Shown here in pieces: positions 3,019-23,636 of a DNA stretch of 64,000 bases (positions are counted from its first letter, which is position 1; every line of letters starts with the position of its first letter). The translations under genes were made by a program, and so were the position numbers. Source of the stretch: Phycisphaerae bacterium (GTDB lineage: Bacteria > Planctomycetota > Phycisphaerae > Sedimentisphaerales > SM23-30); assembly GCA_016342495.1 (NCBI GenBank), contig JAEIOG010000001.1, positions 1 to 64,000 on the forward strand. The letters run 5' to 3'. The notes below the pieces were generated by a model. The model had not been told where the DNA came from, made no database searches, and saw only the letters and a program-made list of their open reading frames with translations.

Positions 3019-4341
3019 CTACCAATTCAGGTAGAGGGTTTGGTTTTTTTGGCGGTCGATAATTGCTTCTATGTATGAGAGGGTAGCTTTGTCTTTGGCT
3101 GAGCCCTGGGCGTGGACTTTGAAGATGTTGGATCGGGTGGTTATGAGATTGGCCAAGGGTGCCAGTTTTTCGGGGGTGACATTATCTATTTCGAGTAAAT
3201 CGGCGATGCTGGTAAAGCTGAATTCGGGGTTCTGGCGGGCGGTTATGATGGCATCGGCGATTGCAGGGGTAATTTCAGGCAAGGTTAGCAGGACAGCCAA
3301 AGGGGCAGTGTTGATATTGATAAGGCCGGGGATAGTTTCAGAATCGGTTATGGTGATCTTGTCGGCTATCTCGATAAATTGCTCTCTGGTTATACGCTGA
3401 GGTTTTGCTCCAGGAATCGGATCGGGAGCCGGGTCGGAAGATGATGGAGCGGCGGCTGGCGGGATTTCGGGAGTAACTTCCTTTTTGATGAGTAAGTCGA
3501 TGATTGATTCATAGGGGCGATTCTGCATAATCCAGTCGGCGACCATTGCATCAATTTGCAGAGCATCAATAAGTATATCGGCATCGGCGGTATTGATATT
3601 GATTCGCTGATTGCCCTTGCTATCCTGATTCAGGTCATAAGAATGGACGGTTAAATAAGCCAACAAGCCACGCTGCAAGATGGAATCTTTATTGTCATCG
3701 GGTTTGGTCTGGTCGCCATCATTTTCATTGGAGTCCAGCAGGCCATTGAGGTTGGTATCTTCGCCAAAGAGCAATTCATTGTCAAGCTGAGGAACCCATT
3801 GGAGCTGGCGGATAGTAGAGATGGGCTGAAGATTTTCCGGTTTTTTTTCATTATCATCAGTAGATACAGGAATTAAGGAATCCCGCCAGGTGATAATAGC
3901 CTGGGCTTCTATTTCTGACATATCCGGAAGCAAAGATAACTGCTGGGCGGTAACGACATTAATATTAATCTTGGCGGATTCATCGGTTAAGCCAAAGATA
4001 ATGGTGTCAGAACTGTTAGGCAGATCGGACCATAAGGTGAATGAACCATCGCCAATTTTAACATTTTTGAAATCCTGATCTTTATCGTGCCAATTGTCAT
4101 TATAGCTGTCGGTGGGGTTAGTGTCCTGAGCTAAGATTGAAAAAGCATATGCGATGGCGGATTTGGCGTGCCAATGAGCTGAGATGGAATCAGTGTGACT
4201 TTTGCGAATGACATTATCGATGCGAGTGAGTTGGCTAAGACCCACAGCTAAAATGGCAAGCAGAACAATGATCCACAACACCATGACGATGACGATGGCT
4301 CTTTGGCGTATGCGATTAGGTTTTGTTGTTATTGTGGTCAT
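3019..4341 (-). CDS. gspK: Type II secretion minor pseudopilin GspK
   Basis: A 440-residue inner-membrane protein expected at the tip of the type II secretion pseudopilus with GspI and GspJ. The N-terminus is a short basic stretch then one hydrophobic helix (IVIVMVLWIIVLLAILAVGL), typical of GspK, which is larger than other pseudopilins. The body holds the T2SK helix-hairpin-helix repeats: ININVVTAQQLSLLP, ININTADADILIDAL and LININTAPLAVLLTLP. An acidic stretch around residue 200 (DTNLNGLLDSNENDGDQ) resembles calcium-binding DxDxDG loops. A proline/alanine insertion lies near residues 295-312. Last gene of the gsp operon, 16 bases after gspJ. Confidence 0.88.
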   Translation of the reverse strand: MTTITTKPNRIRQRAIVIVMVLWIIVLLAILAVGLSQLTRIDNVIRKSHTDSISAHWHAKSAIAYAFSILAQDTNPTDSYNDNWHDKDQDFKNVKIGDGSFTLWSDLPNSSDTIIFGLTDESAKININVVTAQQLSLLPDMSEIEAQAIITWRDSLIPVSTDDNEKKPENLQPISTIRQLQWVPQLDNELLFGEDTNLNGLLDSNENDGDQTKPDDNKDSILQRGLLAYLTVHSYDLNQDSKGNQRININTADADILIDALQIDAMVADWIMQNRPYESIIDLLIKKEVTPEIPPAAAPSSSDPAPDPIPGAKPQRITREQFIEIADKITITDSETIPGLININTAPLAVLLTLPEITPAIADAIITARQNPEFSFTSIADLLEIDNVTPEKLAPLANLITTRSNIFKVHAQGSAKDKATLSYIEAIIDRQKNQTLYLNW

Positions 4342-4357
4342 AGGTTATATGTTTTAT

Positions 4358-5008
4358 TTAGATGCTGGTTGGTTCTTTGGGTTCAGGGGTTTTGGGTAAG
4401 GGTTCGATTATGAAAGTTCTTTCGATTATATAGTCGGGATAATGAGATTTATGGTCAGCAATGACGATTTTAATTTTAATTTTTTCGGGCCAGGTGTCGG
4501 TTTGATCCCATTTTGTTAGCCATTGGCTACTATCATAACATTGGATATTGAAGCTTTTAACATTATCTACCAGATGAATGACTTTGCCATATTCATTGGT
4601 ATCGGTAAGATTTTCGAGTTGGGCGATGCGATAGCCCAGCCATCGGTTTGGCAGGTCTGGATATTGGGTCAGGCCGAATTCTACCTGGATGATGTCGCTT
4701 TTTAGCTGGGGATGCCGGGTTGAAATGGTATAAAAGCTGATGCGGCTGGCATTGTTTTCGGATGAACTGGTAATTTCAAGATGGCGTAGTTTGGGGTCTG
4801 GATGGCGAAATATGCAATTCAGGTCGCGATCGATAATATCAAAAGTGGTTCTGATTGAACTGTGCAATTGTGAATAGTATTGCTGGTTGGAACGGCTGCG
4901 TTCGGTGATTCGCAGAGAAGATAAAGCAGTAACAACAACGATAGCAGCTATTATTATCGCCGGCATGATTTCCATCAGAGTGAAAGCTTGTAGACGTTTA
5001 TTATTCAT
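4358..5008 (-). CDS. gspJ: Pseudopilin, GspJ-like
   Basis: A 216-residue minor pseudopilin. I use the ATG ending at 5008 because it places the prepilin signal (MNNKRLQAFTLMEIM) at the N-terminus; the longer open frame adds 31 unrelated residues. The start overlaps the gspI stop in ATGAATAA, so translation is probably coupled. The hydrophobic helix follows (IIIAAIVVVTALSSL), then a GspJ-like globular part with RLTQYPDLPNRWLGY-type content. The residue before the cleaved bond is Ala rather than the usual Gly, and position 5 is Glu as expected. Assignment to GspJ rests on size and operon order. Confidence 0.75.
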   Translation of the reverse strand: MNNKRLQAFTLMEIMPAIIIAAIVVVTALSSLRITERSRSNQQYYSQLHSSIRTTFDIIDRDLNCIFRHPDPKLRHLEITSSSENNASRISFYTISTRHPQLKSDIIQVEFGLTQYPDLPNRWLGYRIAQLENLTDTNEYGKVIHLVDNVKSFNIQCYDSSQWLTKWDQTDTWPEKIKIKIVIADHKSHYPDYIIERTFIIEPLPKTPEPKEPTSI

Positions 5009-5432
5009 TAGCAGCTGGCAAAGCCTCCTGGTCAGTATCGGCGGGTATGTCTTCAGGTGGGTCTGAAATATAAATAGTCTGCTGAGCCTGATAGATGGCA
5101 ACGCCCTGCTGAAATGTAACTGAACCAGTGACTTCGTAAAGGTGTTGCTGTTGGGCTGCTTTGATTTTGAGTTTGTAGCTGAAGCCGGGGTGGTCCGGGC
5201 ATTGTACAGTTATCGTATTTGCAGCAATGAGTTCATCGAGGTTGTCTTCCAGCGAAAGCTCATTGAGGCGGATATTGAGGAGATTCCAGGCTTGTTCATA
5301 ATCAACGCCAACGGAGTCATTATCGCTACAGATTTTAATTAGCTGGCTTATGACAACAATACCGGCTGAAAGAATCAGCGTAGCCAGCAATGCTTCAACG
5401 AGCGTGAAACCTTTGTTGCGGTAATAAGTCAT
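5001..5432 (-). CDS. gspI: Pseudopilin, GspI-like
   Basis: A 143-residue minor pseudopilin with the canonical class III signal MTYYRNKGFTLVEALLAT, cut after Gly by prepilin peptidase, then a hydrophobic helix to about residue 28. The size and an N-terminus with FTLVEAL match GspI. The C-terminus is rich in Gln, Ala and Pro. It lies 15 bases after the gspH-like gene and overlaps gspJ by 8. No gspC-F or secretin gene is in the window, so the rest of the machine must be encoded elsewhere. Confidence 0.75.
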   Translation of the reverse strand: MTYYRNKGFTLVEALLATLILSAGIVVISQLIKICSDNDSVGVDYEQAWNLLNIRLNELSLEDNLDELIAANTITVQCPDHPGFSYKLKIKAAQQQHLYEVTGSVTFQQGVAIYQAQQTIYISDPPEDIPADTDQEALPAANE

Positions 5433-5447
5433 AAGTTCGATTCCATT

Positions 5448-6032
5448 TTATTTGACAAAAAAGTTGTCGGCGGTGATAGATATTTCATCCAGGTCAACGG
5501 TGTGGTTGGGAGATTTTTCGATGGCATGATTTGCTAAACGCGGTTTTAAGCCATCCGGGGCAACTAATATGGTATTGATATTATCACCTGAACAAATTTG
5601 CATCAGTGTCTGCTGATTGGAGCCATCGCGATTGAAATTGATTTTGATAATTCCCCTGGAATAAGGCTGCTCATCAATGCTGGCTTTGAGGAAAGAAACA
5701 CTTTCGGGGAGTTTTCGAGGCCTTTGATACAAGTTTTCGATAGTTGGCCTTAATTTTTCATCGAGAAGTTGAGCGGGGGCTTCAGCGGCCTGTAGCCAGT
5801 AAGTGTTATTGTCAAAGTCGATATGAACAGTGCATGAACTTTGAGATTCTACGGCTAAGAATCGACTGAAGCGCATAAGTCGGATAAGGTCAGTACCTGA
5901 ACTATTGAGATTAACCTGTTCGACATTGCGATATATACTAACAACGCTGATCATCGCAGTCAGTGCAATGATGACTGTGACGATAATGATTTCAACAGTG
6001 GTAAAAGCGTAATTAGTTTTTGGATATTTCAT
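5448..6032 (-). CDS. gspH: Pseudopilin, GspH-like
   Basis: A 194-residue minor pseudopilin. The signal is YAFTTVEIIIVTVIIAL, with Ala before the cleavage site and Glu at position 5, then a GspH-like segment (LIRLMRFSRFLAVESQS) common in the GspH/FimT family. A later part reads IIKINFNRDGS, comparable to the FimT-type beta-sheet core. It follows gspG after 79 bases and precedes gspI by 15. Assignment to GspH is by order and general similarity. Confidence 0.7.
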   Translation of the reverse strand: MKYPKTNYAFTTVEIIIVTVIIALTAMISVVSIYRNVEQVNLNSSGTDLIRLMRFSRFLAVESQSSCTVHIDFDNNTYWLQAAEAPAQLLDEKLRPTIENLYQRPRKLPESVSFLKASIDEQPYSRGIIKINFNRDGSNQQTLMQICSGDNINTILVAPDGLKPRLANHAIEKSPNHTVDLDEISITADNFFVK

Positions 6033-6111
6033 AAATCTTGTTCAAAGACAGAAGGCACTTATGGTATAGTCGCTACGTAAGGAAATGACTGCCAAGACTA
6101 CTTCGCCTGCA

Positions 6112-6519
6112 TTAGTCATTGACAAAGTCGTCGCCACCACCCTTTTTGCCATCGGGGCCATAGCTGATAAGGTCGAAGCTATGGGTATTAGTCTGGCCGG
6201 GGATGACATATTCAAAAGGGTTATTCCATGGGTCAAGCAGATCATCTTTTTTAATATCATCATTTTTCCACTTATCAGCGACATCAGCGGGAGGGTCGAT
6301 GAGGGCTTTGAGGCCCTGAGCCTGGGTTGGATAGTTGCCGGTGAGCCCTTTGTAAAGGGTAAGAGCCTGGGCGAGGGTAGCCATCTTGGGCTTGACCAGT
6401 TTTTCCTGAGCGACGTCAAGCTGGCCAATGAATTTTGGCACCATTAAGACCGCTAATAAAGCGATAAGCATGACAACAATAAGCATTTCGACGATAGTAA
6501 AGGCTTTGCGATTATTCAT
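6112..6519 (-). CDS. gspG: Type II secretion major pseudopilin GspG
   Basis: A 135-residue major pseudopilin that polymerises into the pseudopilus. The ATG ending at 6519 has AGGAG 7 bases upstream and gives the signal MNNRKAFTIVEMLIVVMLIA. The long N-terminal helix is followed by the family hallmarks: LTLYKGLTGNYPTQAQGLKAL, then DPWNNPFEYVIPG, and a C-terminal calcium-site loop, SYGPDGKKGGGDDF. Ala precedes the cleavage point, unlike the Gly of most proteobacterial GspG. First gene of the operon, with a promoter at 6574-6601. Confidence 0.9.
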   Translation of the reverse strand: MNNRKAFTIVEMLIVVMLIALLAVLMVPKFIGQLDVAQEKLVKPKMATLAQALTLYKGLTGNYPTQAQGLKALIDPPADVADKWKNDDIKKDDLLDPWNNPFEYVIPGQTNTHSFDLISYGPDGKKGGGDDFVND

Positions 6520-6573
6520 GGGCAACTCCTGTATGACATAAAATAATATTATTAATATTTTGATTCTGGTTTT

Positions 6574-6601
6574 ATTATAGCATAAAAAACAACAGTTGCA
6601 A
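6574..6601 (-). promoter_or_regulatory. Probable sigma-70-type promoter of the gsp operon
   Basis: On the minus strand TTGCAA and a perfect TATAAT are separated by 16 bases. Transcription would start about 48 bases before the gspG ATG. Confidence 0.6.
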
Positions 6602-6620
6602 CTGGAGGAATAAGGCAATG

Positions 6621-6850: not shown

Positions 6851-8791
6851 ATGATAATAAAGCCCCAAATACTATGCCCGGAAACGGTCTGGATAGCAAA
6901 TATGAAAGTTCTGTGGGAAAACAATGCAAAATTGGCCCAGCAGATAGAATTAGCAGAACCAGAACATATCGACTTGATACCGACCAGGTCAGGAGATTAT
7001 ACCTGCCAACGACAAGGCCCGCTAGGTGAATTAGTGTTTATCCATAGCAAATATGACCCGATCAAAGAAGCTGGTCGCTGGGTTGAAGGGGCAATGCAGA
7101 TCGCTGAGGGTCAAAGAGACGAAGAAGACCGGATGCCGATGTGTTTCGTGGTGGATGGTTTTGGACTGGGATATCATGTCAAAGCCCTGCTGGAGAATTT
7201 AAGCTCAGATGCTTTTGTGATCGTAGTTGAACCAGATATAGCGATGATAGCTACAGCATTAAAGGTGATTGATTTTTCAGAATACCTGGAAAACAATATA
7301 GTTTTCATACTCAAAGACCAGCGGCAAGAAATTCTCAATAAACTCGAACGCTATAATGCAACGATGATGATGGGAGTAGTATTTACCCGTTCGTTACAAA
7401 AGGCAGATTCCCAGTTTTTCTCGTCAGTGCACAAGGCTATCGGTGATTATGCATCTTATACCCGCAGTCATTTAATGTCTCTGGTGGGCAATTGCGTAAT
7501 AACCTGCCGCAATCTGTTAAATAATCTGCCGGTATACATGGGTACAAAGCCTATCAATATTCTGCTGGACAGATTTATGAAGAAGCCAGCGATTGTGGTG
7601 TCGGCAGGTCCTTCGCTATCGAAAAACATTGATTATATCAAGGAGATAAGAGATAAAGTTGTGGTTATTGCGGTGCAGACAACCCTTAAGCCATTACTAG
7701 CAAAAGGGATCAAGCCTGATTTTGTCACATCGCTGGATTATCATGAAATATCAAAGCGATTTTTCCAAGGGATGGATTCAGCAGATCTTAGCGATATTCA
7801 TCTGGTAGCAGAACCCAAAGCGACATGGCATGTAATAGATGCATATCGAGGCAAAGGGCCAATATCACTATTAGGCAATGATTTTTTGAAAGTGGTTCTG
7901 GAAGGGGCTGATGATGAGCATGGGCATCTGCCAGCAGGGGCTACGGTTGCACACCTGGCGTTTTACCTGGCGGAATATATGGGATGTGATCCGATTATTT
8001 TAACGGGGCAGGACCTGGGATATTCTAATAATGTTTATTACAGTCCGGGCAATGCCCTGCATGAGGTATGGAAGCCGGAACTAAATCGTTTTTGCACTAT
8101 AGAGATGAAAGAATGGTCGAGAATTGCCCGTTCTCGCCGAATGCTGCGAAAAGTGAAAGATATTTATGACAATCCAATCTATACCGATGAGCAGATGTAT
8201 ACATATCTGCAGCAGTTTGAAAAAGATTTCGCTCAGTGCAAGGCCCAGGTGATCGACGCAACCGAAGGTGGTGTCAAAAAAGAATGTACGGTAATAATGA
8301 CATTAAAGGAAGTTGCTGAGCAATATTGCACCGAGAATATTGATCCTAAGCTTTTGGAATACCGCAAAGATATTATTGAATTTGATAAATCTCATCATGT
8401 TAAAGCTTGTGACCTTTTAGATAAACGTATCAAAGATGTAAATGAGTTATTAGATATTTCTAATGAAACAGTGAAGATCGTCAAAGAAATGCTGGAGATA
8501 ATCGAAGACCAGCCAGCATTAAATAAAAAAATGGGGAGACTGGATGAACTGCGAACAATGGTCAAACATAGAAACAGCACATATGGTTTGGTGCGACAGG
8601 TTTCGCAGATGGCCGAGCTGTTTCGTTTTAGAGAAGATCGCACTATTAATGCCAACACAAAAGCCGGTATAGAACGCCAAAGGCGTCAACTTCGACGTGA
8701 TGCATCTTATGTATCGGAAATAGCGATTGGCTGCAAAACTATGCTGGAATTGCTGGAATCTGCAAAACAAAGAATCCAGGATGAGATTTAA
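6851..8791 (+). CDS. Maf-type motility-associated glycosyltransferase (DUF115 / MptE-like)
   Basis: A 646-residue cytoplasmic protein of the motility accessory factor family, thought to transfer nonulosonic acids from CMP-sugars onto flagellin or other proteins. The core DUF115 signature KPAIVVSAGPSLSKN lies near residues 244-258, followed by a nucleotide-binding-like region (KPDFVTSLDYHE, then ILTGQDLGYSNNVYY near residue 385). The N-terminal part (TCQRQGPLGELVFIHSKYDP) matches the Maf N-terminal domain, and the C-terminus is helical. Length is typical. The start has GAG six bases upstream; an ATG 17 codons later is an alternative. It heads a plus-strand cluster with neuA and neuB, which supports the function. 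Confidence 0.85.
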   Translation: MIIKPQILCPETVWIANMKVLWENNAKLAQQIELAEPEHIDLIPTRSGDYTCQRQGPLGELVFIHSKYDPIKEAGRWVEGAMQIAEGQRDEEDRMPMCFVVDGFGLGYHVKALLENLSSDAFVIVVEPDIAMIATALKVIDFSEYLENNIVFILKDQRQEILNKLERYNATMMMGVVFTRSLQKADSQFFSSVHKAIGDYASYTRSHLMSLVGNCVITCRNLLNNLPVYMGTKPINILLDRFMKKPAIVVSAGPSLSKNIDYIKEIRDKVVVIAVQTTLKPLLAKGIKPDFVTSLDYHEISKRFFQGMDSADLSDIHLVAEPKATWHVIDAYRGKGPISLLGNDFLKVVLEGADDEHGHLPAGATVAHLAFYLAEYMGCDPIILTGQDLGYSNNVYYSPGNALHEVWKPELNRFCTIEMKEWSRIARSRRMLRKVKDIYDNPIYTDEQMYTYLQQFEKDFAQCKAQVIDATEGGVKKECTVIMTLKEVAEQYCTENIDPKLLEYRKDIIEFDKSHHVKACDLLDKRIKDVNELLDISNETVKIVKEMLEIIEDQPALNKKMGRLDELRTMVKHRNSTYGLVRQVSQMAELFRFREDRTINANTKAGIERQRRQLRRDASYVSEIAIGCKTMLELLESAKQRIQDEI

Positions 8792-8939: not shown

Positions 8940-10544
8940 ATGATTGAAAATAAACAAAAAACTATAGCTTATATCTGGGCAGACTTAAATAAAAGCTGCC
9001 TTGGAACCGGATCTAGAATCGGTGATAAAATCGGTGATATTGCGGTATTGCCCCGGACCTGCCAGAGACTCAGTAAAGCCAAACAGCTTGATGACATCAT
9101 TGTGTTTTGCCCGGCAGACCAACAAGATAATATTGGGACTCTGCTGAATGGCCATGATGTAGAAATTGTAGGCCTTAATGAACCAATCAGTAATCCAGGT
9201 TTAATAAAACAGCGTAAATGGTCGGTTAATTCCTGGCGTGGCGGCATAGACGAAGCGACGGTTTTTGATGAGATACCTACCAGCGATGAAATAATTCTCT
9301 ATCTGCGTGAACTTGAAGTTTATGGAGCAATTGGGGTTCATGCCGAGGCGATTTTTATTGACCCGGTTTTGATTGATAAGCTGATATTACATTATTATGA
9401 CAATGCCAGTGCGATGCGATTTGCTTTCAGCCAAAGCCCACCGGGACTTTGCGGCTGTATGTACCGGTTGGATATTCTGCATGAAATGAATATGACCAAG
9501 TTGCACGCCGGAGAAGTTATGGCTTATAATCCGGGAAATCCGCGGGCGGACCTGATAGTTGAAGAATGCAATTATAAGCTGGGGCCGGAGATATATACTT
9601 GTGATTTTCGTTTTATAGCTGACACTAAACGAGGATTTAATGTGCTTGAAAAGTTCATAACTGAAAATCCTGATAGTTGTGAAATGGCAAGTGCCGAGAT
9701 AATAGAAAAGATAAGGCCATATTATAAAGCTTTAGGTGATATGCCGAAAGAGATTAATGTTGAGATCAATACCACTATCAGCAAAAGAATTAGTGGTTAT
9801 CCGCATAATGAAAATCAAAGTCGTCAGGAGATGACTCTTGAAACTTTTACTAAAATATTAGAAGGCATCGGCGATTATGATGATGTTTGTTTGACGATTG
9901 GCGGCATGGGCGAACCATTGGCACATGAGCAATTGCCAGAGATGTTGAGGTTAGCTAAAAAAGCTGGCGTGTTTGGTATTAATATCCAGACCGATGGGAT
10001 TTTGCTGGATGATAGATGGCGGGAGATTTTTGCCGAGAATGATGTTGATGTAATTAGCGTTTATCTTGATGGCCATAGCGATGAAGAATATGAAAAAGTC
10101 AAGGTTCAAATTAAATCAATGTTTGAATATTATAAAACATTGGCTGCCCGGCCTTTGCTTGTTCCGCATATGACGAAATGCCATAAAACGATGGGCAAAA
10201 TGGAAGAATTTTTTGATTATTGGATAGCCAACGCTGACTATGCAATGATTGATGGCTATAGCAATTTTGCAGGGCAGATAGAAGATCAGGCAGTGATGAA
10301 TATGGCACCGCCGAGCCGCAGTTGCTGTGTAAAGCTAAGCCAAAGTATGACGATTTTAGCCAACGGTGATACTACGATTTGCCCATTGGATTTTAAAGGT
10401 GAGCAGGTATTTGGTAATGTTGGGAAGATGTCGATCAGTGAACTTTGGAGACATGGGGTATTGGATGAGTTACGCCGGCAGCATAGCGGGAATTGTATAG
10501 ATAATGAGCTGTGCGATGGATGTAATGACTGGCATAGATTTTAA
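8940..10544 (+). CDS. Nucleotidyltransferase-like / SPASM fusion lacking radical-SAM cysteines
   Basis: A 534-residue protein of unusual architecture. Residues 1 to about 230 resemble SpsF/CMP-KDO-synthetase-type nucleotidyltransferases (SRIGDKIGDIAVLPRTCQRL, then DDIIVFCPADQQDN), but the Arg/Lys-rich catalytic loop is altered. Residues about 272-450 follow a radical-SAM barrel (VEINTTISKRISGY, GGMGEPLAHEQLPEML, VISVYLDG), yet the CxxxCxxC that should follow strand 1 is absent. A C-terminal SPASM domain keeps cysteines at 462, 463, 481, 519, 525 and 528 and the FGNVGKMSISELW element. A spirochaete family called spiro-SPASM, as I recall it, has a similar missing motif. Context suggests a role in protein glycosylation; catalysis by S-adenosylmethionine cleavage looks impossible. 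Confidence 0.75.
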   Translation: MIENKQKTIAYIWADLNKSCLGTGSRIGDKIGDIAVLPRTCQRLSKAKQLDDIIVFCPADQQDNIGTLLNGHDVEIVGLNEPISNPGLIKQRKWSVNSWRGGIDEATVFDEIPTSDEIILYLRELEVYGAIGVHAEAIFIDPVLIDKLILHYYDNASAMRFAFSQSPPGLCGCMYRLDILHEMNMTKLHAGEVMAYNPGNPRADLIVEECNYKLGPEIYTCDFRFIADTKRGFNVLEKFITENPDSCEMASAEIIEKIRPYYKALGDMPKEINVEINTTISKRISGYPHNENQSRQEMTLETFTKILEGIGDYDDVCLTIGGMGEPLAHEQLPEMLRLAKKAGVFGINIQTDGILLDDRWREIFAENDVDVISVYLDGHSDEEYEKVKVQIKSMFEYYKTLAARPLLVPHMTKCHKTMGKMEEFFDYWIANADYAMIDGYSNFAGQIEDQAVMNMAPPSRSCCVKLSQSMTILANGDTTICPLDFKGEQVFGNVGKMSISELWRHGVLDELRRQHSGNCIDNELCDGCNDWHRF

Positions 10545-10642: not shown

Positions 10643-11371
10643 ATGAATATGGAAAATAAAAAAATATTGGGTTTGATACCTGCCCGGGCGGGCAGCGTTG
10701 GGGTGCCGGGTAAGAATGTGCGGTTGCTAATGGGTAAGCCTGTGATCAGCTATTCAATAGATACGGCAAGAGAATCGAAATTTATTGATAAGATTTCGGT
10801 TTCCAGCGATGATGCCAAGGTCATGGAACTATGTAAAGCCCTTGATGATGTGGTGTTTGTAAACCGGCCTGAAGAGTTGGCCAGCAATAGTTCACGGGTT
10901 GATGATGCGATGCGGCATTGCCTGAGGTGTTTGAAAGAAGAGCATGGGTATGAACCTGATATTGTGGTTTTGCTTTATGCCAACATTCCGGTACGTAGCG
11001 ATACGATAATTGATCGGGCGATTGAGAAACTGATTGAAACTGATGCCGACAGTGTTCAGAGTTTTACTGATCCGGGTAAATTTCATCCGTATTGGCTTTA
11101 TCAGCTGGAAAATGATGGTGCGGCCAACAAATATATACCAAATAAGATTTATCGCCGACAGGAATTGCCGAGTTTATATGCCGTAGATGGCGCGGTGGCG
11201 GTAATAAAAACCAGTGTATTATTAGATGCCAAAGGTAATGATAATCCGCATGCATTTTTTGGCACTAAACGCAGAGCGGTGATTCAGCAGCCTCACGAAA
11301 CAGTGGACATTGATTCACAATTGGATTTTTACCTGGCAGAAGCAGTTTTGCGTGCAAAGGAAAACAAATGA
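10643..11371 (+). CDS. neuA: Acylneuraminate (nonulosonate) cytidylyltransferase
   Basis: A 242-residue enzyme that couples CTP to a nonulosonic acid, giving the CMP-sugar donor. The N-terminal nucleotide loop LIPARAGSVGVPGKNVRLL near residues 11-29 is diagnostic, followed by the substrate region SVSSDDAKVM and later FFGTKRRAVIQQPHETVDID, with the metal-binding Asp near the C-terminus. A second ATG three codons in could also start translation. It overlaps the next gene by four bases (ATGA), showing coupling. The sequence does not tell whether the sugar is neuraminic, legionaminic or pseudaminic acid, so the symbol names the family only. Confidence 0.88.
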   Translation: MNMENKKILGLIPARAGSVGVPGKNVRLLMGKPVISYSIDTARESKFIDKISVSSDDAKVMELCKALDDVVFVNRPEELASNSSRVDDAMRHCLRCLKEEHGYEPDIVVLLYANIPVRSDTIIDRAIEKLIETDADSVQSFTDPGKFHPYWLYQLENDGAANKYIPNKIYRRQELPSLYAVDGAVAVIKTSVLLDAKGNDNPHAFFGTKRRAVIQQPHETVDIDSQLDFYLAEAVLRAKENK

Positions 11372-12822
11372 GTAAATGTGATGTAGTTTTGATATTTCCC
11401 CCGATTCGAACCTGGGATAATCCACGGAATTTCCCGACAGGGACAGGTTTGGTCGCCGCGATTCTTCGTGATGCCGGCTATAGCGTCAAAGTTATTGATG
11501 CCAATGGTTTGAGATTAACTCAGGAGCAAACTGTTGAGCTTTTAAAAGAATATGATCCGGCAATTATTGGTGTTGGCGGACTGATTACGACTTATAAATG
11601 GATTAAGGAATTAATGCCACTGGTTCGCGAAGGGTTACCGGGCAAGCCGGTTGTACTTGGCGGTTCGGTAGGTACCAGTATTATTGAGACCGCTTTACGG
11701 AATCTGGACATTGATATAATTTGTGTTTGCGAAGGTGATGTAACGATGCCAATACTGGTTGATGCTTTGCTGAATGGTAAAGAAATCGCAGATATTGAGG
11801 GGATTGCTTATCTGAAAGATGATCAGGTCGTAAAAACACCTGAGCGGACGATGGTAGCGGACCTGGATGCCCTGCCTATGGTCGCATGGGATTTGTTTCC
11901 GATGGATGTATACCTGCAAAACCCGGTGGTGGGCGTGGGCAGAGATATTGATATTATCAGTTCGAGGGGATGTCCGTTTAACTGCCGATATTGCTATCGA
12001 ATATTTGGCAGGAAGTTTCGGGCAAGGTCGGCGGCTAATGTTGTAGCTGAAATTGAGGCTTTGCGAGAAAGATATGACGTTGATTTTATCAGTTTTCAGG
12101 ATGACTGTTTTGTGATTGATAAGAAGCGGGTATATGAAATTTGCGATTTAATGGACGCCAAAGGATTGTCAAAACATATTCGCTGGAGCTGTACGGGGCG
12201 GGTTACGGTTTGCGACTATGATTTATTGAAACGGATGAAAGATTCCGGCTGTGTTTCGGTGAGCTATGGCATCGAATCGGGTTCACAAGATATATTAAAC
12301 AATATGGGCAAGGATGCGACGCTGGATCAGGATCGGGCAGCTATTGCCAACACTCGTAAGGCTGGCTTGCGGTGCCCGGTTTCATTTATGATTGGTTACC
12401 CGGGTGAAACTGAGGAAACTGTAATGCAGACGGTAGAATTCTGTAAAGAAGAGAATATTCCCTTGTCGGCTTTGATGTTTACCTGTCCATATCCGGGGAC
12501 GGCTTTGTATGAACAGGTCAAAGATACCGAAAACTTTAAGAAGCAATATCCAACCGAAGAAGAATTCGTATTGACTATTGGTGATGCGATTGATTTTACA
12601 GTTAATTTAACTGATATAGACAAAGATGAATTGATTTCGATTCGTGACCGGGCATTGAAATTAGTGGCGGAGAGCTATGTCGGGCCAACAGCAGCTGAGA
12701 TTGAAGCACAGGACAAAGAACTTTATGGCCCGGAATTATATGCCAAAGCTCAAAAGCAAATGGAAAACCCGGCGATGCAGGAGCATCGTAAGAGACATGG
12801 ATTTAATGAGGGGAAAAAATGA
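11368..12822 (+). CDS. Cobalamin-binding-domain radical SAM protein
   Basis: A 484-residue class B-type radical SAM enzyme. Residues 1 to about 150 form a B12-binding-like Rossmann domain (VLIFPPIRTWDN, GLVAAILRDAGYSVKVID, PAIIGVGGL, VLGGSVGT). The [4Fe-4S] motif is GCPFNCRYCYR, cysteines 202, 206 and 209, followed by an Elp3-type barrel (FISFQDDCFVIDKKRVYE, VSYGIESGSQDIL, SFMIGYPGETEE). It overlaps neuA and neuB by four bases on each side, so it is made together with them. Such enzymes often methylate unactivated carbons or rearrange rings; the substrate is not evident, but a nonulosonate precursor or the glycan is a sensible guess. Confidence 0.88.
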   Translation: MSKCDVVLIFPPIRTWDNPRNFPTGTGLVAAILRDAGYSVKVIDANGLRLTQEQTVELLKEYDPAIIGVGGLITTYKWIKELMPLVREGLPGKPVVLGGSVGTSIIETALRNLDIDIICVCEGDVTMPILVDALLNGKEIADIEGIAYLKDDQVVKTPERTMVADLDALPMVAWDLFPMDVYLQNPVVGVGRDIDIISSRGCPFNCRYCYRIFGRKFRARSAANVVAEIEALRERYDVDFISFQDDCFVIDKKRVYEICDLMDAKGLSKHIRWSCTGRVTVCDYDLLKRMKDSGCVSVSYGIESGSQDILNNMGKDATLDQDRAAIANTRKAGLRCPVSFMIGYPGETEETVMQTVEFCKEENIPLSALMFTCPYPGTALYEQVKDTENFKKQYPTEEEFVLTIGDAIDFTVNLTDIDKDELISIRDRALKLVAESYVGPTAAEIEAQDKELYGPELYAKAQKQMENPAMQEHRKRHGFNEGKK

Positions 12823-13847
12823 TTATTCGACCTTTATGGCAAAAGAATACACCTTATATAATCGCCGAAGCAGGAGTTAATCATAATGGCTGTATCTATA
12901 CCGCAATTGAGATGATAGATGCAGCTAAGGAAGCCGGGGCGCATTGCGTGAAATTCCAGGCTTTTACCACTGATGAACTGGTTTTGATAGATGCCCCGAC
13001 TGCCAGCTATCAAAAGAAGAATACCGGGGCGAAAAGTCAGCATGAAATGTTGAAAAAGCTGGAGCTATCAAAAGATGATTTGATTGAACTTAAGAGGCGC
13101 TGCAATGAAAAAGAAATTGATTTCATGGTGACGCCCTTTTCGGCCAACTGGGTCGAGTTTTTGACTTCGATTGGCGTCATCGCATTTAAGATTGGTTCGG
13201 GCAATACGACCGATCCATTTTTGATTGAAGCAATCGGGAAAAGTCATCTGCCGGTGATAATTTCCACGGGGATGTGTGATCTGGGCGAAGTTCGAGACAG
13301 CATTCATGCCCTGCGAGCAGCCGGAGCAACCGATATGGCGATTTTGCATTGTGTGAGTTTGTATCCGACGCCTTTGGATAAATTGAATTTGAAAGCTATC
13401 TCGACTCTGGCAAATCTGAATTTAGCCGTGGGGTTTTCTGACCATAGCATTGAAACCGTTACTGGAATGCTGGCTATCGCAGCGGGCGCTACTATACTGG
13501 AAAAACATTTCACGCTGGATCAAAAATCATTTGGGCCTGATCATAAGATGTCACTTGAACCGGAGCAGCTGAGTCAATATGTTACCGGTGCGTTAGCGGC
13601 ATATGAGGCAATGGGTGATGGTATAAAAAGACCATGTCGGGCCGAACAGCAAACCAAAAAAGCCGCCCGGCTGTCTTTGGTAGCGGTTTGTGATATCGAA
13701 CCGGGGACAAAAATCACCAAAAGCATGCTAACAGCTAAACGGCCCGGTTCGGGGATACCAGCTGAGCAGATAAATGATGTACTGGGTAAAATCACAATCG
13801 AACCTATCAAAGCCAATCAGCTGATAAATATGAAAGTTTTGCAATAA
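12819..13847 (+). CDS. neuB: N-acetylneuraminate synthase family protein
   Basis: A 342-residue synthase condensing phosphoenolpyruvate with an N-acetylhexosamine-type sugar to a nine-carbon nonulosonic acid. The TIM barrel starts with PYIIAEAGVNHNG, contains VKFQAF, FKIGSGNTTDPFLIE, ISTGMCDLGEV, LHCVSLYPTP and VGFSDHS, and ends with EKHFTLDQKSFGPDHKMSL. The C-terminal SAF (antifreeze-like) domain begins near residue 283 (SLVAVCDIEPGTKI) and ends PIKANQLINMKVL. The length is normal. The start codon overlaps the radical SAM stop in ATGA. No UDP-GlcNAc epimerase gene lies nearby, so the precursor sugar is made elsewhere. Confidence 0.9.
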   Translation: MIIRPLWQKNTPYIIAEAGVNHNGCIYTAIEMIDAAKEAGAHCVKFQAFTTDELVLIDAPTASYQKKNTGAKSQHEMLKKLELSKDDLIELKRRCNEKEIDFMVTPFSANWVEFLTSIGVIAFKIGSGNTTDPFLIEAIGKSHLPVIISTGMCDLGEVRDSIHALRAAGATDMAILHCVSLYPTPLDKLNLKAISTLANLNLAVGFSDHSIETVTGMLAIAAGATILEKHFTLDQKSFGPDHKMSLEPEQLSQYVTGALAAYEAMGDGIKRPCRAEQQTKKAARLSLVAVCDIEPGTKITKSMLTAKRPGSGIPAEQINDVLGKITIEPIKANQLINMKVLQ

Positions 13848-13861
13848 TCTCAGCGAACAAA

Positions 13862-13891
13862 AAAACCTCCGGTTTTAACTCCGGAGGTTTT
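13862..13891. terminator. Bidirectional rho-independent terminator
   Basis: A perfect 11-bp stem AAAACCTCCGG/CCGGAGGTTTT with an 8-base loop lies between two convergent genes (neuB ends at 13847, the DUF1080 gene at 13919). The A/T arms let it work in both directions. Confidence 0.85.
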
Positions 13892-19037: not shown

Positions 19038-21461
19038 TTATTTGAATTCGATTAGTTTAATGTCAGACTTTCTTGATTCGGGTGTAACTGTGAGGGATTG
19101 GATTTTACCATCTTTGAGCTGGCCTTCGATTGTGGTTTGGTATGGGGCGTGGAGTTTGAAATTGACATCCCAGTCTTTGGGCCAGGCGGGGAAGAGGTAA
19201 ATTTCTTTGCCGATGGTCTGGATGAGCATTTCCTGGAGGCCAATCATGCCACTGCCGCCCCAGTTATGGTCGGGCACCCAATCATGGCCGGGACCCCAGA
19301 ATGTTGGGTAGCGACGCGGGCTGTCATCGAGTTTTTTGATATTATAGCTGGCGGCCTGTTCGGTCATGCCCATTCGAGCGTAAAAAATGCCATCCTGATG
19401 CCAACTGATTACCATGTTTTTGGGGAAATTGCCGTGTTTCCAGGTATTGCGAAAAGTCTGCATGTAGTCACTGTCTTTGCCTTGCAGGTCAAAACGGTTG
19501 AAGGGAAACAATGGATAGAACTGAGGGCACTCAACGTTTTGATAGCGTTTCCATGATTCAGCAGGTTTTATTGTTTTGTCGCCATTGACGTTATCAAAAG
19601 CAAAATCCGGGATGGAATTTAAGAATTGACGATAATATTTTTTATCGCGAAGTTTGAGTATGTTATCATCAAGAGTCAGGATAGATTCGAGGCCGGCTTT
19701 GAGTCCGGCAAGGACATCGGAAGGATTTTTAGCGCCACGATAGGACTCACATGAAGTCGAAGGGAAAATGACTAATTTGCCGTTGTTATTTAATTCCTTG
19801 CCGGTACGCATTTTTTCACGCAGGCGATAATGTTCATCGAAGAAAATAAGGGCATTTTCAATAAAAGGCATGTATTTGGATATATCGGCTCCGGTAAAAC
19901 GGTGATATTCCATAATCATATAGGCATTTTCAAGCTGAGATTCCCAATGATAGCCAATGCAGTTGTTGGCCATCACGCCGGGCTCGACGAAGCTATTGTA
20001 ACCCTGGGCGCCATCGGCACGCGGGTCGCCAAAAGGAACTTCTGTGCCACGATTGCGGGAGCCACCTTCCCAGCCCCAGCCAGCACCTATAGCAACACCG
20101 GGGACACTGATATATTCAGAATATACCGCACCATCATGGCCAAAGTGGGCCTTGACCCGGGCTCGAGAACCACCTAAAGCTTTGCGGTAGAGTTCAAAAT
20201 TAGGGAGGATGGCATCGAAGTCACCAGCTTTTAGCATAGGCCAATGCAGAAGTCTTTGGTTTTGAGCAGTAAAGACCCCGCCACCCCAGTCGCGCCAATC
20301 AGGGCCGAAGTTTTTGCCTTTGGCACCGATTACATGGCCATCGACGGTAAAGTTACCGCCATTAAATTTAGTGGGATATTCTCCAAAGGCATTGCAGCCC
20401 AGTTGATAGCGGAAGAGATTGTAGTTTCTAGCTATCCGCCAGGGCTTGCTGGATGGATCGGGTTTATCAGGATTAATAGAAATCCAGGAACGCTGCCAGA
20501 AGGATTTCCACCAGGATTGGGTGGCCTGGCGTTTGTTTTCGATATTATTAGCGGAATCGGCGATTAATTCATTGAGTTTTGTACGCCATTGGTCGATTGT
20601 TTCAGTTTGAGCGATATGAGTGACGATGCGAAGCTGGTGTTTTTGGGCAGGATGGGTTGAAATAAGATGCCATGCTTTATAAGGCGTGACTTGATATTTG
20701 TCGGTGGTCTGGTTGGCTGTTTTGAAATTTGTGCCGAGCATCGCGCCGCCGAAGGTTCGGCCTTTTAGATCATCGACAATTTCATCTTTATATTTTTCCA
20801 GCCCCTGCTGCTTAATCAAGACTTCTGGGATAATTTTATTATCGGGGTTACGATGATAGAAAATAATTGAGTTATTTTGAGAAGAAATGGTGTCTTTGCT
20901 GAGGGTGATCTTGCCGGGGTATGCTTCCATTGAAAAGATAGGACGACGACTAAGATTGTTGGGGATGTCTCTATCTTCCAGCCGCCAGTTTTCATAAGCG
21001 GCATCAACGGAAATATTTTGTGAGGAATCGACATCAACATAGATAGTAGAATCTTTGATGTTTACCCAAACTTTGACGGTTGCGTTTAGAGGTTTGCCGT
21101 TAGCCTGAGATTGAGCCTGAATTTCGACAAAGCCCTGTTTAAGTTTGAGCTCCTGTTTGAATGTTTTACCGGCAAAGGGGTTAGGGGTCATTTCAAGGCG
21201 GATTCTGCCAAGTTTGAGATATTGATTGTTTTCGGCCAGACTGCCGCTGCGCTGGATGTAAAACAGTAATTCGCCCTTTTCGGCCCAGACATTCAAACCA
21301 ATATCGCCGCCGCCACATGGCATGGAAGCAGCTGAATTGTCGCTTTGAGAATCCCAAATGATGTTATACTGGTTGAGCCAATCTAAATTTTGGGCATTGG
21401 CGACGATTGAGAAAATGCAAATTACTAACAAGATTAGTTTTATTTTTAGTGAAATTTTCAA
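19038..21461 (-). CDS. Secreted DUF5703 / glycoside-hydrolase-like protein
   Basis: An 807-residue exported protein with a signal peptide (IKLILLVICIFSIVANAQ). The N-terminal DUF5703 region shows YNIIWDSQSDNSAASMPCGG, then DIGLNVWAEKGELLFYIQ and YLKLGRIRLEMTPNPF, like the N-domain of GH95-type enzymes. The rest resembles an (alpha/alpha)6 toroid, for instance NCIGYHWESQLENAYMIMEY, VIFPSTSCESYRGAKNP and WHQDGIFYARMGMTEQA. A C-terminal beta domain ends the protein (TIEGQLKDGKIQSLTV). I expect a glycosidase acting on complex polysaccharide in the periplasm or outside the cell; the substrate is unknown. It follows the PL8 lyase gene by 42 bases, so both are likely co-transcribed. Confidence 0.82.
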   Translation of the reverse strand: MKISLKIKLILLVICIFSIVANAQNLDWLNQYNIIWDSQSDNSAASMPCGGGDIGLNVWAEKGELLFYIQRSGSLAENNQYLKLGRIRLEMTPNPFAGKTFKQELKLKQGFVEIQAQSQANGKPLNATVKVWVNIKDSTIYVDVDSSQNISVDAAYENWRLEDRDIPNNLSRRPIFSMEAYPGKITLSKDTISSQNNSIIFYHRNPDNKIIPEVLIKQQGLEKYKDEIVDDLKGRTFGGAMLGTNFKTANQTTDKYQVTPYKAWHLISTHPAQKHQLRIVTHIAQTETIDQWRTKLNELIADSANNIENKRQATQSWWKSFWQRSWISINPDKPDPSSKPWRIARNYNLFRYQLGCNAFGEYPTKFNGGNFTVDGHVIGAKGKNFGPDWRDWGGGVFTAQNQRLLHWPMLKAGDFDAILPNFELYRKALGGSRARVKAHFGHDGAVYSEYISVPGVAIGAGWGWEGGSRNRGTEVPFGDPRADGAQGYNSFVEPGVMANNCIGYHWESQLENAYMIMEYHRFTGADISKYMPFIENALIFFDEHYRLREKMRTGKELNNNGKLVIFPSTSCESYRGAKNPSDVLAGLKAGLESILTLDDNILKLRDKKYYRQFLNSIPDFAFDNVNGDKTIKPAESWKRYQNVECPQFYPLFPFNRFDLQGKDSDYMQTFRNTWKHGNFPKNMVISWHQDGIFYARMGMTEQAASYNIKKLDDSPRRYPTFWGPGHDWVPDHNWGGSGMIGLQEMLIQTIGKEIYLFPAWPKDWDVNFKLHAPYQTTIEGQLKDGKIQSLTVTPESRKSDIKLIEFK

Positions 21462-21503
21462 TTTGTTACCCTTAACTACTTAGTGTATTTACATTCTGTT
21501 TTT

Positions 21504-23636
21504 TTACTGATTTTCTATTGTCACACTGGTTCCGGCATAGTCGCCCTGAGGCAGGTCGATGGCGATATCTTTTTCGCCTGATATAGACATATGGAGCCGA
21601 CTTAATTTGCGGGTCGGGTCGGAAACTGTAATCTGGTCAATTTTATTATTTTTCATTTTTAACATGACAATGCCGGGTGAGTCAAGAGTAATATCTATGG
21701 CTTTGGCAATGGTTATTGTTCCAGAAGTATAGAATACCGCCTGGACGATACCGAGAGATGTGTGTTTGACGCATTGGATTTGTGAATTATTAGATAATGT
21801 TTCTATTGGGCGTTCTGTATTTAGTTGTTTTGGGATTGTGACCGGGACGACAATGTACTGATAAGTAACATCTTTGGTATCCATTTTGCCGGGGTAAAGC
21901 CACAGGTTTTCGCCCTGGGGACGTTTGCCGTGATTGATCCAGAGTTTGAATACATCTTTTTCAACCAGTTCTTTTGAAGAAGAAGACTGTTTGTTTATAT
22001 CATACCAACGGCCAGATTCAGTTTTGTTTGAGAGGTTAATATTAGCTGGTTCAGGAAATATATAACCGATGCCGTTGTGGAATACCCATTTTGTCTGGTC
22101 TATATGATGGTCCCCAGGTTCGATTTTAGTTTGTTCATTTGCTCTTGACACTATTACATCACTGCGTAAAAGTGACTGATTAATTGTCGTAGCGATGGGA
22201 TTATTAAAATCATTAGAAGCAATACCAGCACCAAGGCAGACATATTCATCATCGAAAAAGAACCATGACTTTTTGACACGAATAAAGTCATGGGGGCTGA
22301 TAAAATCAAAGCCAACAACACCATAGAGGCCATCGGTAGCAGCCCCGACAAAATCAGTAAGGCCATCCTGCAGCACTTCATTGGAAGAAGGCATTTTGGG
22401 CTTTTGCAGGACGGTGGTACCGGGGATTTTCTGCCAGTCGTAGACAGGCCAGATATTCAGGTATTCATCGCCTTTTACTGCCAGGTGATTGGCGCCATCA
22501 CTTTTATAATGATTAAAAATGCCCTCGCTGTTATGGGCAAGTTCCATATTGCGATTGCGGGTAGAGAACATTCTTACCGAAGTATAAAAATCGGGACGTT
22601 GGAAAACGAAATGCTCTGATTGCCAGAAGAATTTAGCGAATGAAAGTGTCGGTTTGTCAATTTTACCTTTGCAAAGGTCGATAATTTCTTTTATCTCATT
22701 CTTGCGATAATCGCTGGCTTCATAGAGATTTTCCAGTGGAATCAGCAGAGAGTGAGCCGATGCAGTTTCTTTTCTGGTGATGTCACGGTTGGCTACACCT
22801 TTATCATCATATTTGCCATAAACTTTCTGTTTGCAAAGTCCATCTAAATGATAATCGACTAGAAGCTTTATTTTTTCTTCAGAAAAAGCGTATTTGGTGC
22901 CAGCGACACAGGCGGCCCACAGGGCGCAATTCTGGCCATAGCCTGAGCCATAAGAAACGGTGTTATTAACCCGATGGACGCGATGATGGAAGCTAAAGTC
23001 ACACTGCATGCCCCGAAAGCCAGTCATGAGTTTTATCTGGTCCTGGATTATATCAATCAGTTGGGAAAAATTTTCTTCATCACCAATAAGGATGTAATTT
23101 TGAGCTTCGATCGAACAAATTTTGACCCTGTCGGCACTTTGGCGCGCCCAGCGGTCGTCTTTGCTGGCACGTTTAATCATAGGTTGTAATTTTTTCAAAA
23201 TATCAGGATCAATGTCTTTTTCCATGATTAGAGAAATTTTCACGAAAGTTCTGGGGGTAAAAACGATGTTGTACCACCAGTTAGCACTGATAAAATTATA
23301 CTCGCACCAAAATTTTAAGGCTTTATTAATAGTGATTTTAAGTTTTTGATCTTTATAGAATTTAGATTTATTATTGCAGTATGCCAGAGCCATAGATTCG
23401 AGGTTTTCGACATGAATGCTGTGCTGGTATCCGGTAAGAGATAAGTCTTTATAATTAATCTCGGGCCAAGAGCCATCATCTTTTATTGTGGACATTGCCT
23501 GTTCTACAAGAGAATCATTAATGTCGGACCTAAGCAGTTCTTTGATTAAATTGGTTTTGATTACTTGTAAATCATTTTGAGCAAAAACCAGAGTGGACAT
23601 TGCAAAACAAAAAATCATGCTTAATATTATTTTCAT
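21504..23636 (-). CDS. Polysaccharide lyase family 8-like protein (hyaluronate/chondroitin/xanthan lyase type)
   Basis: A 710-residue exported lyase that should cleave uronic-acid-containing polysaccharides by beta-elimination. The signal peptide is IILSMIFCFAMSTLVFAQ. An alpha toroid carries PL8 landmarks: NWWYNIVFTPRTFVK near residue 118, the catalytic His/Tyr segment DFSFHHRV then YGSGYGQN near residues 212-236, and the Arg/Asn-containing RNRNMELAHNSEGIFNHY near 365. The super-beta-sandwich has GDEYLNIWPVYDWQKIPGTT, a strong family marker. The family includes chondroitin AC, hyaluronate and xanthan lyases, and the sequence alone does not separate these. First gene of a pair with the DUF5703 protein. 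Confidence 0.87.
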   Translation of the reverse strand: MKIILSMIFCFAMSTLVFAQNDLQVIKTNLIKELLRSDINDSLVEQAMSTIKDDGSWPEINYKDLSLTGYQHSIHVENLESMALAYCNNKSKFYKDQKLKITINKALKFWCEYNFISANWWYNIVFTPRTFVKISLIMEKDIDPDILKKLQPMIKRASKDDRWARQSADRVKICSIEAQNYILIGDEENFSQLIDIIQDQIKLMTGFRGMQCDFSFHHRVHRVNNTVSYGSGYGQNCALWAACVAGTKYAFSEEKIKLLVDYHLDGLCKQKVYGKYDDKGVANRDITRKETASAHSLLIPLENLYEASDYRKNEIKEIIDLCKGKIDKPTLSFAKFFWQSEHFVFQRPDFYTSVRMFSTRNRNMELAHNSEGIFNHYKSDGANHLAVKGDEYLNIWPVYDWQKIPGTTVLQKPKMPSSNEVLQDGLTDFVGAATDGLYGVVGFDFISPHDFIRVKKSWFFFDDEYVCLGAGIASNDFNNPIATTINQSLLRSDVIVSRANEQTKIEPGDHHIDQTKWVFHNGIGYIFPEPANINLSNKTESGRWYDINKQSSSSKELVEKDVFKLWINHGKRPQGENLWLYPGKMDTKDVTYQYIVVPVTIPKQLNTERPIETLSNNSQIQCVKHTSLGIVQAVFYTSGTITIAKAIDITLDSPGIVMLKMKNNKIDQITVSDPTRKLSRLHMSISGEKDIAIDLPQGDYAGTSVTIENQ

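Follow-up and report, generated by a model that had tools for sequence, protein, structure and literature searches.

A SPASM-domain protein without radical SAM cysteines is associated with Maf-type flagellin glycosyltransferases in Planctomycetota

The window analysed here (the whole stretch of 64,000 nucleotides from the start of a Phycisphaerae bacterium contig, JAEIOG010000001.1) encodes a protein in which a nucleotidyltransferase-like domain is joined to a radical-SAM-type barrel and a SPASM domain, while the cysteines that would hold the SAM cluster are missing. The question raised by this locus is what a protein of two apparently degenerate enzymes is kept for. A preliminary description of the locus suggested a scaffold or binding role.

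Results

Domain organisation and fold

The gene of this protein, hereafter spSPASM, runs from 8940 to 10544 (+) with an ATG start and encodes 534 aa in a three-part layout; the opposite strand of the same interval was interrupted by stop codons. The three parts are an N-terminal degenerate cytidylyltransferase domain (residues 1-243, 8940-9668, +) supported by fold, sequence and conservation, a radical-SAM-type barrel (residues 264-455, 9729-10304, +) and a SPASM/twitch domain (residues 456-534, 10305-10541, +). Pfam search of the window protein showed a Radical_SAM match (PF04055) at residues 294-386 with 32.6 bits against a cut-off of 29.5 and a SPASM match (PF13186, 4.5e-9) at residues 463-529 with 36.9 bits against a cut-off of 21.5, and the SPASM/twitch part matched BtrN by profile (5.6e-11). 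The AlphaFold model built from 42 rows had a pLDDT of 91.4 and a pTM of 0.91. Comparison of the model with Foldseek and VIA-align showed that residues 264-532 superposed on BtrN (4m7t) with a Z of 22.8 and an rmsd of 2.5 over 230 aligned residues at 19% identity. Residues 5-272 had their best solved match in the Leptospira cytidylyltransferase 6oew with a Z of 21.8 and an rmsd of 2.8 over 223 aligned residues. SuiB was also among the fold matches. The radical SAM origin of the barrel, which had been read from VEINTTISKRISGY and GGMGEPL, both present in the protein, was borne out by the domain score and the fold.

The SpsF/KdsB/NeuA-type cytidylyltransferase fold of the N-domain was seen again in the match to 2y6p (Z 16.0), and sequence similarity to 6oew was weak (4.2e-5 by profile). 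Two residues of the domain, R224 and D228, stand opposite the R..DT of 6oew. In true cytidylyltransferases, the acids of the GDxP and R..DT regions bind metal. The CTP loop is not conserved in spSPASM and the window protein has AEAI in the place of GDxP, which survives in part outside the family of the window, many relatives having a GDWP-like sequence. Pfam found no cytidylyltransferase in the N-domain of the window protein, and PF02348 matched only 4 of 54 members. The earlier view of the N-terminus as nucleotidyltransferase-like with an altered active loop agrees with this fold and with the unconserved CTP loop. A new conserved signature, RKW..WRGG..T.FDE, was found in the N-domain, where the signature positions are R92, W99-R100-G101, D110-E111, F163, P168-G169-L170, Y196, P198, D204, R224 and D228. 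Positions at least 90% conserved and identical between unfused (42 rows) and fused (22 rows) sequences numbered 15 in the N-domain, 6 in the barrel and 1 in the SPASM domain.

Absence of the SAM-cluster site

Profile alignment with BtrN placed its three SAM-cluster cysteines at I280, I284 and Y287 of spSPASM (9777-9800, +), followed by a common Pro288. Neither CX3CX2C nor a cysteine at any of the three sites was found in 64 rows (41 unfused and 23 labelled 'F') or in 20 further rows, of which L159 and L172 duplicate L077 and L079. The replacement of CxxxCxxC by non-cysteine residues, first noticed in the window protein, therefore extends to all 84 aligned rows. CX3CX2C is present in related ordinary enzymes from the same order, such as L013, L025 and L026. 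The barrels of L156 and L166 hold no cysteine at all while the four C-terminal cysteines are retained, so that completion of a first cluster by other cysteines of the barrel, an objection raised together with the preliminary description and checked here by alignment, is ruled out for these two members. GGxG[E/D]P is a SAM-contact motif in radical SAM enzymes, and it is retained in the window protein as GGMGEP at residues 321-326 (9900-9917, +), with G321 and G324 invariant in 42 rows, while the region of the motif varies freely across lineages. Compared with catalytic radical SAM enzymes, spSPASM has the partial barrel with its PF04055 match and lacks the three-cysteine set for the SAM cluster. 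The alignments support a complete loss of the radical-SAM cysteines across the family, and the degeneracy of both catalytic sites of spSPASM is likewise supported.

C-terminal cysteines

The window protein has 16 cysteines in total and only four of them are conserved, each in 41 of 41 unfused rows. These are the putative cluster ligands Cys463 (10326-10328), Cys481 (10380-10382), Cys525 (10512-10514) and Cys528 (10521-10523), all on the + strand. With 13 invariant columns in 534, the probability that all four of these named positions would be invariant by chance is about 2e-7. Six SPASM cysteines had been described as intact, of which these four stood; Cys462 is a cysteine in 1 of 41 rows and Cys519 is not conserved. 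The spacing C463-x17-C481-x43-C525-x2-C528 is BtrN-like and is that of a four-cysteine twitch domain with one auxiliary cluster; with four conserved cysteines only, the full SPASM set for two auxiliary clusters was not found. According to PMC9012708, BtrN with its three SAM-cluster cysteines mutated still binds one auxiliary [4Fe-4S] cluster through four cysteines, which makes a single cluster in spSPASM plausible by analogy. The same paper gives a low potential for the BtrN auxiliary cluster.

Family membership and distribution

The best NCBIfam match of the window protein was TIGR04321 ("spiro-SPASM") at 3.5e-36 and 125 bits, which is half of the cut-off of 250 bits; the maximum in the order was 170.8 bits and 0 of 148 genomes scored above the cut-off. 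TIGR04321 matched 42 of 42 members scanned and was the commonest NCBIfam match among them. The match covered the barrel and the SPASM domain, and in some members part of the N-domain as well (profile positions 75-506 in L006). We take the family description to be that CX3CX2C is lacking and the C-terminal SPASM cysteines are kept, and the family is presumably found in spirochaetes. The feature pattern is that of spSPASM, with CX3CX2C absent and C-terminal SPASM cysteines retained, but the organisms differ, as all 45 loci from the scan of the named genomes belong to Planctomycetota. In a phylum-wide sample of 199 genomes, 31 showed a match at 1e-40, some of them over the barrel only, and full-length matches were also present outside the class. 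No spirochaete spiro-SPASM protein was seen in the genome-contig scan, which gave Planctomycetota only, or in a plasmid search, where Brachyspira radical SAM proteins were found that cover the barrel and SPASM part only. The spirochaete SPASM family mentioned in the preliminary description does exist as TIGR04321, and the HMM comparison proposed there returned it as the best match, below its cut-off. No literature on spiro-SPASM or TIGR04321, on SPASM proteins with flagellin glycosylation, on SPASM domains in connection with spirochaete flagella or on such pseudoenzymes was found in the library searched. The profile set was made without L082 and L084-L087 (fragments or fusions) and the tree without L078, L082, L083 and L087; the contigs of nine of the family loci are identical to those of L043-L051.

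Association with Maf

The gene directly upstream of spSPASM (6851-8791, +) encodes a Maf-type flagellin glycosyltransferase (MptE-like or PseD-like) of 646 aa, with matches to PF01973 (1.1e-44), PF20157 and, below cut-off, NF050051 (9.5e-35). Of the 45 named loci, 39 have 1.1 kb or more of sequence before spSPASM, and in all 39 Maf comes immediately before it on the same strand, as a separate gene in 36 and fused in 3; the remaining six (L051, L070, L078, L082, L083 and L087) start at a contig edge and were not counted. Among 16 further unique unfused loci, Maf was adjacent in 10 and non-adjacent in 6 (L162, L165, L166, L167, L168 and L171), and all six of the latter genomes have a Maf-type gene elsewhere. 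In genome G193, Maf and spSPASM are on separate large contigs. The neighbours of L167 include RuvB and SpoIID-like genes, and those of L171 include a peptidyl-arginine deiminase and a SAM synthetase. At L077, repeated as L159, the gene order is Maf, spSPASM, Maf, the two flanking Maf genes being divergent.

Across 298 genomes of the class, Maf was present in 153, the N-domain (used alone as the probe) in 154 and both in 151, figures that are inflated by shared inheritance. Maf alone was found in G280 (81% complete) and G299 (53% complete), and the N-domain alone in G256 (86% complete), in G010, where the gene is at a contig edge, and in G235, where a partial Maf shares its frame. Of the 298 genomes, 227 have flagellin; 152 of these are Maf genomes (of 153 in all) and the other 75 have no Maf; the N-domain tracks Maf and not flagellin. 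An odds ratio of Maf and spSPASM based on barrel matches was dropped as circular, because 20 weak matches had been excluded partly for the absence of Maf; the N-domain counts took its place, and the flagellin and Maf counts are not affected.

Natural fusions with Maf

In families f10, f24 and f25, Maf and spSPASM are encoded in one open frame of about 1120-1470 aa. Such single-frame fusions were present in 19 of 20 fetched loci and in the named loci L084-L086, resulting in 22 fusions, and in the twentieth fetched locus, L133 of a different family, Maf and spSPASM occupy two frames that overlap. In the N-domain tree the 22 fusions group together as a single clade with weak support (0.50), and they were therefore counted as one event. 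Two extra fusions are L175, from the same family as the clade, and L157, from another lineage. The AlphaFold model of fusion L135 (1189 aa), computed from an alignment of both fused and single rows, had a pLDDT of 93.3 and a pTM of 0.92, the latter an indirect sign of docking; a short linker at residues 640-644 was of low confidence. The first half of the model matched Maf 5mu5 with a Z of 23.9 and an rmsd of 7.0 over 531 aligned residues, and both the cytidylyltransferase fold and the barrel fold are kept in the second half. The model suggests a single well-ordered particle; with halves that moved independently, the whole-chain pTM should have been much lower.

Among the 60 unique unfused loci (fragments L082 and L087 counted), 56 have the four cysteines, compared with 1 of 24 fusions. 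They are absent from all 22 fusions of the clade, from L175 and from the unfused L171 and L174, with partial loss in L133 and L173, while fusion L157 retains all four. As several lineages have lost the cysteines, the family does not depend on the cluster, and as the N-domain signature stayed where they were lost, the N-domain rather than the cluster site is the constant core of spSPASM. At first, 22 of 22 clade fusions without the quartet against 41 of 41 unfused rows with it had suggested that a covalent link replaces the cluster. This idea was rejected after 20 further loci, which included the fused L157 with four cysteines and the unfused L171 and L174 without them. Because of these three loci, and because the 22 fusions are a single clade, fusion and cysteine loss are not tied to each other.

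Surrounding operon

Downstream of spSPASM are genes for a CMP-nonulosonate cytidylyltransferase of PseF/NeuA type (10643-11371, +; 242 aa; PF02348; TIGR03584 4.4e-31, below cut-off), an intact-looking B12-binding radical SAM enzyme (11368-12822, +; 484 aa; PF02310 and PF04055; TIGR03471 3.1e-61, below cut-off) and a nonulosonate synthase of the NeuB family (12819-13847, +; 342 aa; PF03102; TIGR03569 4.9e-111, just below cut-off). Together with Maf, these genes appear to form an operon for the synthesis and transfer of a nonulosonic acid. A PseF/NeuA-like gene follows spSPASM in 28 of 45 loci, and 14 of 45 have a NeuB-like gene within reach; many of the contigs are short. A terminator-like hairpin (13862-13891, -), from a consensus scan only, lies between the converging genes ending at 13847 and 13919. 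The promoter scan found 30 against 21 expected, and no tRNA was found.

The B12 radical SAM gene overlaps each of its neighbours by 4 bases, and its product may alkylate the sugar. Strong homologues were present at 7 of the 45 loci, each belonging to the same family as the window. The B12 radical SAM gene shares one frame with a NeuB-like gene, a possible fusion, at L046 (13343-15931) and L050 (5821-8367). The CMP-transferase and the NeuB-like synthase are in one frame downstream of spSPASM at L057 (11662-13695), L062 (10807-12552), L071 (12041-13783) and L174 (5066-6958). Elsewhere in the window are a pilin-like gene block (3019-6618, -), with a type II secretion protein K match for the product of 3019-4341, a family 8 polysaccharide lyase (21504-23636) beside a DUF5703 protein (19038-21461) in a block at 19038-23636 (-), and a 1221-aa protein (25139-28804) with a hydrazine-synthase alpha-like middle domain (PF18582) and a sulfatase-modifying-factor-like domain (PF03781).

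Discussion

Gene order, co-occurrence and natural fusions tie spSPASM to Maf, and we regard a functional association of the two as very likely and a physical complex as likely. On balance, spSPASM probably serves the Maf flagellin glycosyltransferase as a non-radical accessory subunit. It would bind Maf in a stable cytoplasmic complex and would perform no radical chemistry. The scaffold or binding role of the preliminary description, in which Maf as partner did not feature, was suggested on good grounds and is still an inference. The conserved pocket of the N-domain, formerly a CTP or CMP-sugar site, may bind the CMP-nonulosonate donor, the CMP product or a segment of flagellin. In relatives, the barrel binds peptides. 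Either the altered CMP-sugar pocket or the barrel could help Maf to load or position its donor or acceptor, although such a substrate-loading role is proposed only tentatively. In members with all four cysteines, a single [4Fe-4S] cluster may stabilise the shape of the C-terminal domain, as it does in the BtrN variant that lacks its SAM-cluster cysteines. In Aeromonas, Maf modifies flagellin in the cytoplasm and a chaperone takes the flagellin afterwards, as described in PMC4065374. PMC11339370 reports that Clostridium botulinum Maf modifies flagellin in E. coli when given flagellin and a source of CMP-sugar, which indicates that Maf as such needs no spSPASM-like subunit.

A different explanation would make the four-cysteine cluster the working part of the protein. 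spSPASM would then act in redox transfer or sensing and control flagellin glycosylation, or supply electrons to another enzyme, for example the B12 radical SAM protein encoded two genes further on. Such a function would fit the four cysteines of 41/41 unfused rows and 56/60 unique unfused loci, and the low potential given for the BtrN auxiliary cluster in PMC9012708, but it appears unlikely with the quartet lost from 23 of 24 fusions and from the unfused L171 and L174, and partly from L133 and L173, and with the B12 enzyme confined to the family of the window, where strong matches come to 7 of 45 loci. The N-domain could instead still be an enzyme, a cytidylyl- or glycosyltransferase of changed specificity for which the barrel is merely a platform. 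The unconserved CTP loop, the change of GDxP to AEAI in the window, the PF02348 match in only 4 of 54 members and a separate CMP-transferase gene directly downstream all make us doubt this, even though the cytidylyltransferase fold, the alignment of R224 and D228 with the R..DT of 6oew and the GDWP-like sequence of many relatives speak for it.

A role in chaperoning flagellin or regulating flagellar assembly, in which spSPASM would share the Maf operon without touching Maf, is quite improbable. Operons do group functionally linked genes whose products do not touch, and Maf of Aeromonas passes flagellin to a chaperone (PMC4065374); against this stand the natural fusions with Maf and the high whole-chain pTM, together with the 75 genomes of the class that have flagellin and no Maf, the N-domain following Maf rather than flagellin. 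Cleavage of SAM with a first cluster held by other residues or by a partner is extremely unlikely: GGxG[E/D]P is retained, but the three sites are never cysteine, the barrels of L156 and L166 are cysteine-free and the motif region drifts between lineages.

The accessory-subunit reading of spSPASM would give a partner and a testable function to a family that is catalogued by NCBI and unexplained, through natural fusions that go beyond gene order. The spiro-SPASM family itself (TIGR04321) was already catalogued, and what is described here is a variant widespread in Planctomycetota. PMC9481697 reports that the flagellins of Treponema denticola bear an unusual glycan which is essential for filament assembly. 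Given this glycan and the naming of the family after spirochaetes, the prediction of Maf as partner also bears on spirochaete motility. As a speculation to which we attach little probability, Planctomycetota, and by extension spirochaetes, may have a two-subunit flagellin nonulosonate transferase of Maf and a dead hybrid, in which the old CMP-sugar pocket presents the donor and the Fe-S cluster makes glycosylation and motility redox-sensitive in most lineages, a control given up where the cluster was lost. The family also offers a clear example from nature of a radical-SAM-type protein that has lost the catalytic cluster site and retained the auxiliary site, which is useful for asking what auxiliary clusters do alone.

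Comparison with known systems

Among the catalogued families, TIGR04321 is the best match of the window protein, but the score is below its cut-off and the organisms found here are Planctomycetota. TIGR04347 is likewise a named pseudo-SAM/SPASM family and matched 6 of 42 members weakly; compared by name and score alone, it differs in that the window protein scored 22.1 bits against a cut-off of 525. The twitch-domain radical SAM dehydrogenase BtrN (4m7t) shares the barrel and twitch fold and the positions of the auxiliary cysteines; spSPASM, however, is without the three SAM-cluster cysteines, and nothing in the BtrN chain corresponds to its N-terminal domain. With 6oew of Leptospira borgpetersenii and the CMP-KDO and CMP-Neu5Ac synthetases, spSPASM shares the fold of residues 5-272, but it has lost the CTP loop and retains the metal-binding acids only partly. 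Maf (Magnetospirillum 5mu5; PF01973) is a separate protein in the window, and according to PMC11339370 the Clostridium botulinum Maf is active without such a partner; yet Maf is both the neighbour and the fusion partner of spSPASM and matches the first half of the fusion model.
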